Position numbers and translations under genes: made by a program. This document shows positions 1,371 through 18,012 of a stretch of 64,000 nucleotides of DNA, one piece after another; within the stretch, counting starts at the first letter, position 1, and each line of letters begins with the position of its first letter. This DNA is from Planctomycetia bacterium. Its GTDB lineage: Bacteria > Planctomycetota > Planctomycetia > Pirellulales > Thermoguttaceae. The notes beneath the pieces were generated by a model that ran no database searches, was not told where the DNA came from, and saw only the letters and a program-made list of their open reading frames with translations. The stretch spans positions 1 to 64,000 of the forward strand of contig JAUNBJ010000001.1 of NCBI GenBank assembly GCA_030535245.1, written 5' to 3'.

Positions 1371-2639
1371 ATGAAAATCATTCCGGGAAAGATTCTACGC
1401 GAGATTTTCATCCTTTTTTTGATCGTGCAGCTGAGTTTTACGATGCTGTTCGTGGTGCTTGGGCTGACGTTTCAGGGGGTATTCGACAAGATTCCTTTGG
1501 GGGATATTCCCTATATTATTCCTTATATTTTCCCCTTCTCGCAATACTATGCCAGCCAGTTGACCATGGTGCTGACGGTCTGCGTGGTCTATTCCCGGTT
1601 GAACGCGTCGCGGGAGATCATCGCGTTGCAGTCGTCGGGGATTTCGGCGCTTCGAGTCATGCTTCCCGCGTTTCTTCTGGGGCTTTTGATGAGTTTTTTT
1701 TCGTGGTACATGGGCGAATTACACAACACGTGGGGCCGATACGGGATCAGTCGAGCCGTTTCGACGTACGCGGAGACGATTTTCTACAACATTCTGGCGG
1801 AGAACGAGAATATTTCGTTTGGGAATTACTCCCTTTCGGTGGAGGGGGTGGAGGGGAAAACGTTGATTCATCCGGTTTGCAGTGCGTCGGACGAGAAGCT
1901 GGGGGGCGAGATTCTGTTTTCTGCCGACACGGCCTGCGTTCAGATTGGTGCGGCGAAGGAGTTTTGCAAGGAGGGGGAAGCGTTGGAGAATATTACGGGC
2001 GCTCCTTTTGAGCCGGAGGATCCGGAGGAAACGGTTGTGAAAATCACGTTTGAGCGGGTCAATTCCAGAATGGAGGATATTCGCACCATCATTCCACGAA
2101 CGAAGGTGGTCTATTTGCCGGTGAGTGCGTTACCGATCGGGCAGATTTTTTCCGAGAGTCGGGAGGATTATCCACCGTCGATGTCCCCTGCGCGGCTGGT
2201 CAAATACGCGAAGGAACGCCAGGAAGCCATGGAAAGGAACCGTCAACAGATGGCGTTGGCGGCGACGCGGCAGCTTTTAACGGGGAGCCTGGAGAGTTAC
2301 CAAAATCCCCAATGGGATCAGATGCACCGTGCGGAGCATGAGTATCGCGCCAATCTGAAGCGGGTACGGATCGAGTTTCCACGACGGTGGGCAATGGCGT
2401 TCAACTGCTTTTGTCTGGCGTGGCTCTGTACGCCGTTGGCGCTGATTTATGGCAAAAAGGGAGCATTGCAACTGTTTACGGTTGTGATTTTGCCCATTTT
2501 GCTGATATTTTACTACCCTTTGTGCCAGGTGATGCTGAATTGGAGTAAGCAAATGCTGAGTTTTCCGGTAGAATTGCAGCTGTTGCCCAATATTTTAGCG
2601 TTTCTTGCGGGGATTCCTCTGATTCGACGGGCGATGTGA
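1371..2639 (+). CDS. LptF/LptG (YjgP/YjgQ) family permease
   Basis: A 422-residue inner-membrane protein of the LptF/LptG family. These pair with the LptB ATPase to pull lipopolysaccharide from the membrane into the Lpt bridge. Three hydrophobic segments lie in the first 115 residues, including the family-typical stretch on regulating LNASREIIALQSSGIS. A soluble periplasmic domain follows (about residues 120-335), then hydrophobic segments near the C-terminus (about 340-420). The periplasmic domain is longer than in E. coli LptF/G, with an inserted charged, glutamine-rich stretch (about 270-330). GGGGAGAGGCAGGGGAG precedes ATG 1371. Its stop overlaps the start of the UbiA gene, implying coupled translation. 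Sequence alone does not distinguish LptF from LptG, and no other lpt gene is in the window. Confidence 0.85.
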   Translation: MKIIPGKILREIFILFLIVQLSFTMLFVVLGLTFQGVFDKIPLGDIPYIIPYIFPFSQYYASQLTMVLTVCVVYSRLNASREIIALQSSGISALRVMLPAFLLGLLMSFFSWYMGELHNTWGRYGISRAVSTYAETIFYNILAENENISFGNYSLSVEGVEGKTLIHPVCSASDEKLGGEILFSADTACVQIGAAKEFCKEGEALENITGAPFEPEDPEETVVKITFERVNSRMEDIRTIIPRTKVVYLPVSALPIGQIFSESREDYPPSMSPARLVKYAKERQEAMERNRQQMALAATRQLLTGSLESYQNPQWDQMHRAEHEYRANLKRVRIEFPRRWAMAFNCFCLAWLCTPLALIYGKKGALQLFTVVILPILLIFYYPLCQVMLNWSKQMLSFPVELQLLPNILAFLAGIPLIRRAM

Positions 2640-3568
2640 TGGTTGGAAAAATCCGTAAGTATCTGGAGTTGATTCGGTTTTCGCACACGCTGTTTGCCAT
2701 GCCGTTTGCGCTGTTGGCGGCGGCGATGGCGTGGTTTGGGGATGGGATTTCGCCGACGCTCCCATTTCGCGTGTGGGATTGGGTGGGGATTTTGGTCTGC
2801 ATGGTTTTTGCGCGGGCGGCGGCGATGGCGTTCAATCGGGTGGTGGATCGCAAGATCGACGCGTTGAATCCACGGACGAAGAACCGTCATTTGCCGGCGG
2901 GAAAAATCACGACCGCGCAGGCGGTGGGATTCACGGGGGTTTGTGCGTTGGGGTTTTTGGCCGGGACGTGCTGTTTTTTACCCCGCAACCCGATTCCGGT
3001 GGTTTTCGCGGTGCCGGTGTTGCTTTTCCTGTTTGGCTACAGTTTCGCGAAGCGGTTCACGTGGCTGGTGCATTTCTGGCTGGGGGGAGCGCTTATGCTG
3101 GCGCCGATTGCGGCGTGGGTGGCGATTCGTGGGGAAGTGCTTTTGCCGTACCTTCTTTCAGGGACGTTTGCGTTTCCGACGATGGAGTATTCGCCGTTGG
3201 TGCTGGCGCTTGGGGTCGCGTTTTGGACGGCGGGGTTCGACATGATTTACGCCTGCATGGATGTGGAATTCGACCAGACGCACCGGGTTTTCAGCGTTCC
3301 GGGCTGTTTTGGCATTCGGGCGGCGTTGCGTCTGGCGGCGGTTTGCCACGCAGTGGTGGTGGGGATTCTGGCCTGTTTGCCATGGGTGTACCCCCCCTTT
3401 GGCAGGCTCTGGTGGGGAGGCTGCGGGGTGATTGCGATCCTTTTAATTTACGAGCATTCCGTGGTTGACGTGCGAGACCCCGGCAAGGTGAACGTGGCTT
3501 TTTTCCATGTCAACGCGATCATCAGCGGAACGCTTTTGGCGGTGGGGCTTGGGGACCTGTTCTTTTAG
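2639..3568 (+). CDS. UbiA-family prenyltransferase (4-hydroxybenzoate polyprenyltransferase-like)
   Basis: A 309-residue polytopic membrane enzyme that attaches a polyprenyl chain to an aromatic acid during quinone synthesis. The first Asp-rich Mg-diphosphate motif is clear at residues 66-74 (NRVVDRKID), followed by the typical LNPRTKNRHLPAG. A second acidic motif, YACMDVEFD, lies near residues 200-212. The start ATG at 2639 shares one base with the TGA of the upstream permease gene; a GTG three bases earlier is an alternative. The family member most like this is the UbiA-like enzyme used for ubiquinone or, in futalosine-pathway bacteria, menaquinone (MqnP). Which quinone is made cannot be told here, but Na+-NQR and a bd-like oxidase gene in the window fit a quinone-based chain. 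Confidence 0.87.
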   Translation: MVGKIRKYLELIRFSHTLFAMPFALLAAAMAWFGDGISPTLPFRVWDWVGILVCMVFARAAAMAFNRVVDRKIDALNPRTKNRHLPAGKITTAQAVGFTGVCALGFLAGTCCFLPRNPIPVVFAVPVLLFLFGYSFAKRFTWLVHFWLGGALMLAPIAAWVAIRGEVLLPYLLSGTFAFPTMEYSPLVLALGVAFWTAGFDMIYACMDVEFDQTHRVFSVPGCFGIRAALRLAAVCHAVVVGILACLPWVYPPFGRLWWGGCGVIAILLIYEHSVVDVRDPGKVNVAFFHVNAIISGTLLAVGLGDLFF

Positions 3569-15527: not shown

Positions 15528-16910
15528 ATGGATTTTTTATGGTGGTACGTTCCGTACCTGACATCCCCAATGTTGATTGCGATCATTGCGACGGTGCATG
15601 TTTTCGTGTCGCATTACGCAGTCGGCGGAGGGATTTTTCTGGCCTGGGAGGTTCAGCACGCCTACCGTACGGGGAACGAGGAGTATCTGCGTTATCTCCG
15701 ACGGCACGCGAAGTTCTTCATCCTGTTGACGGTTGTTTTCGGAGCAATCACCGGCGTGGGGATTTGGTGGACGATCGGGCTGGCGTCGCCGTTGGCTACG
15801 GAAACGCTCATTCGCGTATTCGTTTTTGGCTGGGCGACGGAGTGGGTCTTTTTCGTTGTGGAACTGGTCGCGGCGTTCCTGTTTTTCTACCTGTGGGGAA
15901 AGTTGCCGCCGAAAACGCACGTGGCGATTGGCTGGATTTACGCCGTAGCTGCGTGGATCAGTCTGGTGTTGATCACGGGAATCACGGCGTTCATGCTCCA
16001 TCCGGGAAACTGGGTGGCGGCGACCGACGCGGGGAGCGGCCCTCCGAATTTCTGGCTCGCGTTTTTCAACCCGCAGTTCCTGCCCCAGACCGTGGCGCGG
16101 ACGGGGGCGGCACTGCTTTTGGCTGCAACGTACGTCCTTTTGCATGGGGCGTGGACGCTTTCGGAAAAGGAGGCGAAAAACGGCCTGCAAAAACTGCTGG
16201 TGCGGCGGACGGCGCGGTTTGCGCTGCTTGGAATCGTGCTTGCATTGGTGGGAATCGTGTGGGCGGGGGGAACGCTTCCGGAGCTTGCACGTCAGACATT
16301 GCTTCGGGCGGCGGCGCTCAACGTAATCCTGGGGGCCGGAGCGGGTGCGGCGGGGTTGTTGGTGCTGCTTTTGGCGATCGTCACGTGGAAACCGCAATGG
16401 CTTTCACCGATGGGGGCGGTCGCCCTGTTCGCGATGGCGCTGGGAACGCTCACGGCGGGGGAATTTGTCCGGGAGGCGATCCGCAAGCCGTTTGTGGTGA
16501 CGAACGTAATCCTGAGCAATCAGATAACGGTTTCTCAGGTACCAGCGCTTCGGGAAAATGGCCTGCTGGAAAGCGGAACCTGGACGAAACCCTACCTGCT
16601 GGAAAAGTATCCGTACCTGAAAACGGCGGAGGGAAAGATCGACCTTTCGCGGGTGGCGGAAAAAGACCGGGACGCTATCGGGCGGGTGGTGTTCATGCAC
16701 CACTGCAACGACTGCCATGCGGAAACGTTCGGTTATTCGGGGCTGGGGCCGTTGTCGAAAACCGGTTCGCGGGAGGAGTTGTTGCAATTCATTAAAAATC
16801 TCAACAGCATGATTTACTACATGCCGCCATGGTGCGGAAACGATGCGGAAGCGGCGATGCTGACGGACTATTTGCAAAACCGGAATCGGGAGGGAAATCA
16901 TGTGGATTGA
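15528..16910 (+). CDS. Cytochrome bd oxidase subunit I-like protein fused to a C-terminal cytochrome c
   Basis: A 460-residue membrane protein. The N-terminal 160 residues follow the CydA pattern: a first helix with His24 and His29, a helix with GAITGVGIWWTIG, and a helix with Glu in WATEWVFFVVE, matching the haem-bearing core of bd oxidases. I see no long quinol-binding loop. After about eight hydrophobic segments the chain ends in a short c-type haem domain, HHCNDCHAETFG (Cys393, Cys396, His397), with a candidate distal Met in YYMPPW. This suggests electrons may be taken from, or passed through, a c-type haem rather than directly from quinol. A consensus promoter and AGGAGG site precede ATG 15528. 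The gene overlaps the next membrane-protein gene by 11 bp. Similar bd-like proteins are known from Nitrospira and planctomycetes, but their activity is unsettled. Confidence 0.8.
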   Translation: MDFLWWYVPYLTSPMLIAIIATVHVFVSHYAVGGGIFLAWEVQHAYRTGNEEYLRYLRRHAKFFILLTVVFGAITGVGIWWTIGLASPLATETLIRVFVFGWATEWVFFVVELVAAFLFFYLWGKLPPKTHVAIGWIYAVAAWISLVLITGITAFMLHPGNWVAATDAGSGPPNFWLAFFNPQFLPQTVARTGAALLLAATYVLLHGAWTLSEKEAKNGLQKLLVRRTARFALLGIVLALVGIVWAGGTLPELARQTLLRAAALNVILGAGAGAAGLLVLLLAIVTWKPQWLSPMGAVALFAMALGTLTAGEFVREAIRKPFVVTNVILSNQITVSQVPALRENGLLESGTWTKPYLLEKYPYLKTAEGKIDLSRVAEKDRDAIGRVVFMHHCNDCHAETFGYSGLGPLSKTGSREELLQFIKNLNSMIYYMPPWCGNDAEAAMLTDYLQNRNREGNHVD

Positions 16911-18012
16911 AAATCCAGCGTTGTCGCCACTGCCGGCGCCGGTGTGGTTTGTACTGTTTTTCAAGGTGCTGGGATTCGTGCTGCACATGGTGCTGATGAA
17001 TCTCTGGATGGTAGGGTTGCCGTTGGCGCTGTTGCTGCACTGGAAGGGGTGTCCGCAGGGGAAACTCTGGGGGACGCGTCTGATCCGACAAATGCCGGTG
17101 ATCATCACGTTCGGGGTGAATTTCGGTATCGTGCCGCTTTTGTTTATTCAGCTTTTGTATCCACGGGCGTTTTATCCCGCGACGATCCTGATGGCATGGC
17201 ACTGGATTGGGATCATTGCTCTTTTGATACCGGCGTACTACGGCACGTATCTTTACGTGTATGCCATGGCGAAAGAGGGGACGGGAATAGCGTCCTGGCA
17301 ACGGGCGTGCGGGTGGATTTCGGCGATTTTTTTCCTGATCATCGGTTTCTTTTTCGTGAACGGCATGGTGCTGACCGCCAGTCCGGAGAGCTGGAAAGAG
17401 GTCTGGCTTGCCAGGGAGAGTTCCGGCGCAACGCTGGGGCTGGGTTCGGCCATCCGACATGCGACGCTGTTTCCGCGTTGGGTTTTGATGTTCGGGCTGG
17501 CTTTGGGAACCCTTTCCGCCTGGACGCTTTGGGATCGGACGTTTTTCCTTGGCAACCAGATGCCGGACTATCAGAAATGGTCGAACGGCTGGACCCGCAT
17601 GACGGCGTTTTTCGGAGCGATCCTCTTTACGCTGGCGGGGAGCCATTATATTTTCGTGACGCTCTCGCCGGAGCTGCGTCACGCGATGTTTGCCATGCCG
17701 CTTTTGCCCTGGACGCTTTTCGCTGCGGTGATGCCATGGGCGACGGCGATTACGGTCACGTGGGCCACATCCCGTCGGTCGCGTGCTTTTCCGGCTGCCG
17801 TGGTGGTGCTTGCGCAGCTTGCCGCCCTTTCCGCCAACGCCATTTCGCGTCAGCGTTTGCAGATTCTGGAGCTGAACGGATTCCTTCCCCTCTCGGAAAT
17901 TCCCGTTCATACGGAGCTTGGCCCCATGCTCCTGTTTCTGGGGACGTTCGTCGTGGGGGTCGCCGTGATCCTCTGGATGTTGTATCAGGCGATCCTGTCC
18001 CGCGAATCGTAA
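16900..18012 (+). CDS. Partner membrane subunit of the bd-like oxidase
   Basis: A 370-residue polytopic membrane protein with about nine hydrophobic segments and no extramembrane domain. Its first helix (FFKVLGFVLHMVLMNLWMVG) and third-fourth helices (MAWHWIGIIALLIPAYYGTYLYVY) contain histidines in positions that could bind haem. The ATG overlaps the end of the cytochrome c-fused subunit gene by 11 bp, with AGGGAAATC as ribosome site, so the two products are almost surely made together as a complex. It does not resemble canonical CydB closely; it may be a diverged CydA-like second subunit. Function is inferred from context and topology. Confidence 0.72.
   Translation: MWIENPALSPLPAPVWFVLFFKVLGFVLHMVLMNLWMVGLPLALLLHWKGCPQGKLWGTRLIRQMPVIITFGVNFGIVPLLFIQLLYPRAFYPATILMAWHWIGIIALLIPAYYGTYLYVYAMAKEGTGIASWQRACGWISAIFFLIIGFFFVNGMVLTASPESWKEVWLARESSGATLGLGSAIRHATLFPRWVLMFGLALGTLSAWTLWDRTFFLGNQMPDYQKWSNGWTRMTAFFGAILFTLAGSHYIFVTLSPELRHAMFAMPLLPWTLFAAVMPWATAITVTWATSRRSRAFPAAVVVLAQLAALSANAISRQRLQILELNGFLPLSEIPVHTELGPMLLFLGTFVVGVAVILWMLYQAILSRES

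Follow-up and report, generated by a model that had tools for sequence, protein, structure and literature searches.

The gene pair studied here probably encodes both subunits of an O2 reductase that accepts electrons from cytochrome c and belongs to the cytochrome bd superfamily. The pair is located in a window of 64,000 nucleotides (the whole stretch of DNA that was analysed) from a Planctomycetia bacterium of the family Thermoguttaceae. The subunit I gene (15528..16910, 460 aa, P0001) and the subunit II gene (16900..18012, 370 aa, P0002) are both on the forward strand. An earlier reading of the DNA, made from the sequence alone, had described two overlapping membrane genes at these coordinates; both the coordinates and the overlap were correct. 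The evidence comes from the anatomy of the sequence and its conservation, from the predicted folds and the pairing of the genes, and from the other respiratory genes of the genome; on this basis a haem content, a donor, an acceptor, a proton route and a role of subunit II can be proposed. A Rieske/cytochrome b-dihaem c complex would take electrons from menaquinol and pass them to the haem c of subunit I, directly or through a small cytochrome c. The fused periplasmic cytochrome c would be the electron entry, replacing the quinol loop and haem b558; from there the electrons would pass to the buried haem pair and on to O2, which would be reduced with protons taken from the cytoplasm. Subunit II, as a CydA paralogue, would fill the structural place of CydB.

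The proposed O2-reducing core and electron entry of subunit I

Subunit I matched the Pfam family Cyt_bd_oxida_I (PF01654) with 77.4 bits (cutoff 26.2), and a profile of 48 subunit I homologues matched the bd oxidase 5doq_A with an E-value of 2.6e-16. The CydA-like membrane domain (residues 12-318) has 8 predicted TM helices, and eight membrane helices are also found in the AlphaFold (AF2) model (pLDDT 93.3, pTM 0.91). The best ten PDB matches in a Foldseek search with this model were all bd subunit I, with TM-scores of 0.52-0.60 by query. The Pfam match, the alignment with 5doq_A and the predicted bd fold agree with the sequence-only reading of a bd-like subunit I with CydA-like helices. The larger homologue set includes 139 proteins; two of these (L029 and L030) have neither haem c nor Arg191 and look like ordinary CydA by sequence, and after they were set aside His24, Arg191, the CxxCH motif and Met432 were conserved in 137/137. 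This conservation, together with at least 575 relatives of subunit I in public genomes, indicates that the gene is not a chance reading frame.

The residues around the buried haems are highly conserved. His24 (codon 15597..15599, + strand; profile alignment with 5doq_A) is kept in 48/48 and in 137 of the 139 homologues, the other two being gapped there; we take it to be the helix-1 haem ligand of the bd oxidases (H21 in G. thermodenitrificans, H19 in E. coli). Glu105 and Glu112 (codons within 15840..15863, + strand), each kept in 138/139, presumably correspond to the proton-path glutamates E101/E108 (E99/E107 in E. coli) by the same alignment. Glu316 (16473..16475, + strand), kept in all 139, is likewise taken to be the haem b595 ligand (E378 in G. 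thermodenitrificans, E445 in E. coli). Haem ligands are thus found at the CydA positions where their absence would have spoken against a bd-type enzyme, with H24 and E316 aligned to H21 and E378, and subunit I appears to keep a haem d/b595-type O2-reducing site. The earlier reading had left room for both another electron donor and another acceptor. The donor part is supported by the sequence, profile and predicted structure, which point to a bd-like complex with cytochrome c or a similar donor; the acceptor part is less likely, because the residues associated with reducing O2 are kept, which suggests O2 itself. NO, nitrite or peroxide as the acceptor would be favoured by the wide occurrence of the pair in anoxic habitats and by an active site whose haem type is a prediction; with E105, E112, E316 and H24, which in bd enzymes are linked to reducing O2 and supplying protons, near-invariant, such an acceptor is very improbable.

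The TM6-TM7 loop is the quinol loop in the canonical bd enzymes. This loop contains only 13 residues in 137 of the 139 homologues and 9 or 12 in the remaining pair of sequences, which bears out the earlier observation that no quinol loop was visible. Arg191 (codon 16098..16100, + strand) is paired with His186 in the alignment with 5doq_A, and is present in 48/48 and 137/139 homologues, the two exceptions being the ordinary CydA proteins without haem c. His186 is presumably a ligand of haem b558 (the ligand roles are taken from general knowledge of bd structures). The helix equivalent to that of the second b558 ligand (Met393) has no conserved Met among the 48 homologues. By these alignments, subunit I therefore seems to have lost its quinol loop as well as the site of the low-spin haem b558, and an intact quinol site, which would have contradicted the sequence-only reading, was not found. 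The three features of the canonical quinol-oxidising enzymes (qOR), namely the quinol loop, the b558 ligands and a CydB partner (PF02322), are all missing. Neither the loss of the b558 His ligand nor the CydA paralogy of the second gene had been noticed before. The b558 loss also counts against a cytochrome c-accepting enzyme, as it leaves a gap between haem c and the buried haems.

A quinol-linked enzyme could instead use another site for the quinone pool, with haem c as an added branch; one example would be a cytochrome c:quinone oxidoreductase that acts in the manner of alternative complex III or runs the reaction backwards, as proposed for Nitrospina bd-like proteins. An alternative-complex-III-like role was proposed for bd-like proteins (PMC3578206), mycobacterial bd oxidases have quinol near haem b595 (PMC8951039), and some genomes with subunit I contain no cytochrome b complex at all. 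Such a link to quinol is nevertheless improbable, given that the quinol loop is absent, Arg takes the place of His186 in all copies with haem c, the region of the Met ligand varies, and the O2-reduction residues are retained.

Electron entry through cytochrome c is consistent with the C-terminal domain of subunit I (residues about 378-455). Residues 383-449 matched the Pfam family Cytochrome_CBB3 (PF13442) with 24.7 bits, just under the cutoff of 27, and the profile of the 48 homologues also matched many monohaem cytochromes c. The haem c attachment motif CNDCH (C393-H397; 16704..16718, + strand) is read directly from the sequence, and a haem c motif is present in 137/139 homologues. Met432 of an MPP motif (codon 16821..16823, + strand), found in 48/48 and 137/139 homologues, is expected to be the second axial ligand of haem c. 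The fused cytochrome c with its terminal CNDCH, as previously described, is thus confirmed and extended by an invariant Met. In the AlphaFold model the C terminus also folds into a helical domain about as large as a cytochrome c, and the eight helices together with the positive-inside pattern would place this domain in the periplasm.

Subunit II and the conservation of the gene pair

No match of subunit II was found in Pfam or NCBIfam. Profile-profile comparison of subunits I and II gave an E-value of 9e-13 over 276 colinear columns, and the reversed-alignment controls of either subunit gave no match. The AlphaFold model of subunit II (pLDDT 95.1, pTM 0.92) has 9 main predicted membrane helices, and its best Foldseek match was the bd subunit I chain 5doq_A; subunit II chains also scored high. 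His29 in helix 1 is invariant (45/45 homologues). At the positions checked, subunit II shows no conserved equivalents of the acidic residues found in subunit I. An assignment as CydB was rejected by sequence, although bd subunits I and II resemble each other in fold: subunit II has no Pfam match, and its own genus has no CydB; a weak match to PF02322 was found in one of the 45 homologues (E=0.005). Subunit II is most likely a CydA paralogue standing in the place of CydB, as judged from the profile comparison and the best fold match. The window's copy contains no haem c motif. Four distant planctomycetes (L019, L021, L025 and L027) have a CxxCH cytochrome c motif at the C-terminal end of each subunit.

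The two genes overlap by 11 nt (16900..16910, + strand; direct sequence), which is likely to reflect translational coupling; the intergenic distance at other loci ranges from -11 to a few tens of nt. The two-gene layout was also looked for in related genomes, as the sequence-only reading had proposed. Of the 130 testable loci (those with enough sequence to judge the adjacency of the partner), 105 have the subunit II gene directly 3' of subunit I; the order is inverted in a few loci (L113, L129 and L141). Both subunits form one natural fusion ORF of 860 aa at L036:265-2844 (- strand) in the genome G307. This was the only clear fusion among five candidates from the profile search (L026, L036, L055, L114 and L153); L026, L055 and L114 were rejected as subunit I proteins of ordinary length, which match the subunit II profile because the subunits are paralogous. 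Inspection of 80 loci by eye revealed no other conserved neighbour that stood out besides the pair. In several Planctomycetaceae MAGs (L102, L130, L132, L134-L138 and L142-L144), subunit I is followed by a short gene that the partner profile does not match; it may encode a truncated subunit II or a replacement for it.

Respiratory genes of the host genus

Subunit I is present in 59 of 81 Thermoguttaceae genomes, and the pair is also found in MAGs labelled Acidobacteria, Chloroflexi, Bacteroidetes, Bipolaricaulota, Armatimonadota, WOR-3 and others. The window belongs to a genus of gut/rumen Thermoguttaceae MAGs, with relatives among 'Planctomycetia' MAGs including those from goat reticulum and water deer rectum. 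All five genomes of this genus contain subunit I, and none contains the haem-copper oxidase gene COX1 (0/5); across the family, subunit I occurs without COX1 in 38/81 genomes. CydB was not found in the genus (one of 26 tested genomes has one), nor was NrfD of alternative complex III. These absences come from searches by gene family in draft genomes that are about 88-93% complete (91% for the window genome), and recur across the five genomes. The oxidase searches covered a few named families (COX1, CydB and NrfD, besides subunit I), and within this scope the gene pair is the only O2 reductase found in the genus.

The same enzyme might serve an anaerobic gut bacterium mainly by scavenging O2, or by detoxifying O2, peroxide or NO, and less for energy respiration. 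The gut habitat is largely anoxic, so that respiring O2 could be secondary to another role. The reticulum and rectum MAGs among the relatives and the lack of a haem-copper oxidase would fit scavenging or detoxification, and canonical bd oxidases share such roles (PMC10839748). The Rieske/b-c complex and the menaquinone genes of the genus suggest a coupled chain instead; genomic data cannot separate the two, and we consider a mainly protective function unlikely.

Menaquinone genes of the MqnA/D type are present in the genus, and the window encodes a UbiA-family prenyltransferase resembling MqnP (2636-3568, + strand), which is consistent with menaquinone synthesis. A cytochrome b gene was found in four of the five genomes; the protein is fused to a dihaem cytochrome c in those examined, and a Rieske gene adjoins it in all three genomes inspected for one. 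A cytochrome c assembly gene was present in 18/18 genomes tested. The Rieske/cytochrome b-dihaem c complex is a plausible donor to subunit I on the basis of these genes. Four genomes with subunit I (G297, G333, G351 and G307, with the loci L039, L040, L042 and L036) yielded no COX1, cytochrome b or convincing NrfD, and this donor scheme does not account for them.

The cytochrome b of this complex (L065:1315-3423, - strand, on G000:C121) is itself unusual. The second haem ligand of helix B, a ligand of haem bH, is His in canonical cytochromes b. Alignment showed Tyr at this position in 19 of the 22 homologues compared (L071-L073 and L158-L176), and Ser, Arg or Thr in the remaining three. The His is retained in two further cytochrome b paralogues of the family. 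The Rieske/b-dihaem c complex may thus lack one b haem, and hence a normal Q cycle.

Relationship to known bd-type enzymes

Murali et al. 2021 reportedly described OR-C members with a C-terminal cytochrome c and no quinol site, some of them as paralogue pairs. A bd core without a quinol site and with a C-terminal cytochrome c reportedly defines OR-C, and the window pair has both features. It most likely falls in the branch without a quinol site (OR-C/OR-N), and in OR-C rather than OR-N, a placement based on these features. The archaeal CydAA' of Caldivirga, said by the same authors to be an oxidase of two CydA paralogues, resembles the window pair in this composition; it differs in its reported use of quinol and in lacking a cytochrome c domain. 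Papers that cite Murali et al. 2021 give the classes as qOR, OR-C and OR-N, and place the enzymes with a quinol site in qOR (PMC13189123, PMC10839748, PMC11707229).

The sequence-only reading had stated that bd-like genes are reported in Nitrospira and planctomycetes. The former holds, with reports from Nitrospira and Nitrospina (PMC3578206, PMC6606698, PMC10839748); for the latter, a literature search for planctomycete bd-like oxidases found none. OR-C had only passing mentions in the open literature, where no published assay of this enzyme kind was found either. For the OR-N enzymes of Nitrospira/Nitrospina, cytochrome c is the presumed electron donor (PMC12324825, PMC10839748). Their CydAA' resembles the window pair in having no quinol site, paired CydA-like subunits and a proposed cytochrome c donor (PMC10839748, PMC12342949, PMC3578206, PMC6606698). 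The Nitrospina bd-like protein has 14 TM helices, with three helices replacing the Q loop (PMC3578206), whereas subunit I has 8 predicted helices and a fused cytochrome c, and so differs from this OR-N layout. Some deltaproteobacterial CydA proteins are also fused to several c-type cytochromes and have no cydB partner (PMC5322542, where they were set aside); these carry multiple c haems, whereas subunit I has one, and a CydA-paralogue partner in addition. Compared with canonical cytochrome bd (5doq, 6rko, 7d5i and others), subunit I has the fold and the haem d/b595-site residues in common; however, the window pair lacks the Q loop, the b558 ligands and, by sequence, a CydB, and has an extra cytochrome c, which in subunit I takes the place of the canonical C-terminal membrane helix.

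The enzyme kind is already described, and the pair is probably a member of a known bd branch. The present analysis adds the invariant Arg191 at the b558 ligand position and the paralogy of the partner, either of which may already stand in Murali et al. 2021, and also the context of a sole oxidase in a gut genus. Arg191 and the CydA-paralogue partner, fused once in nature, are specific targets for mutagenesis and structure work. Cytochrome c oxidation by bd-type enzymes without a quinol site has so far been a prediction in the literature, and a genus in which the pair is the only O2 reductase found, with a visible b/c donor complex, offers a clear test case. More tentatively, and with considerable doubt, the chain of this gut planctomycete lineage might have been rebuilt on c haems at both ends, with a bd enzyme as its sole O2 reductase: a Rieske/b complex without a high-potential haem b ligand would feed a bd oxidase without b558. 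If true, this would be a form of bd respiration that oxidises cytochrome c and does without haem-copper enzymes altogether.
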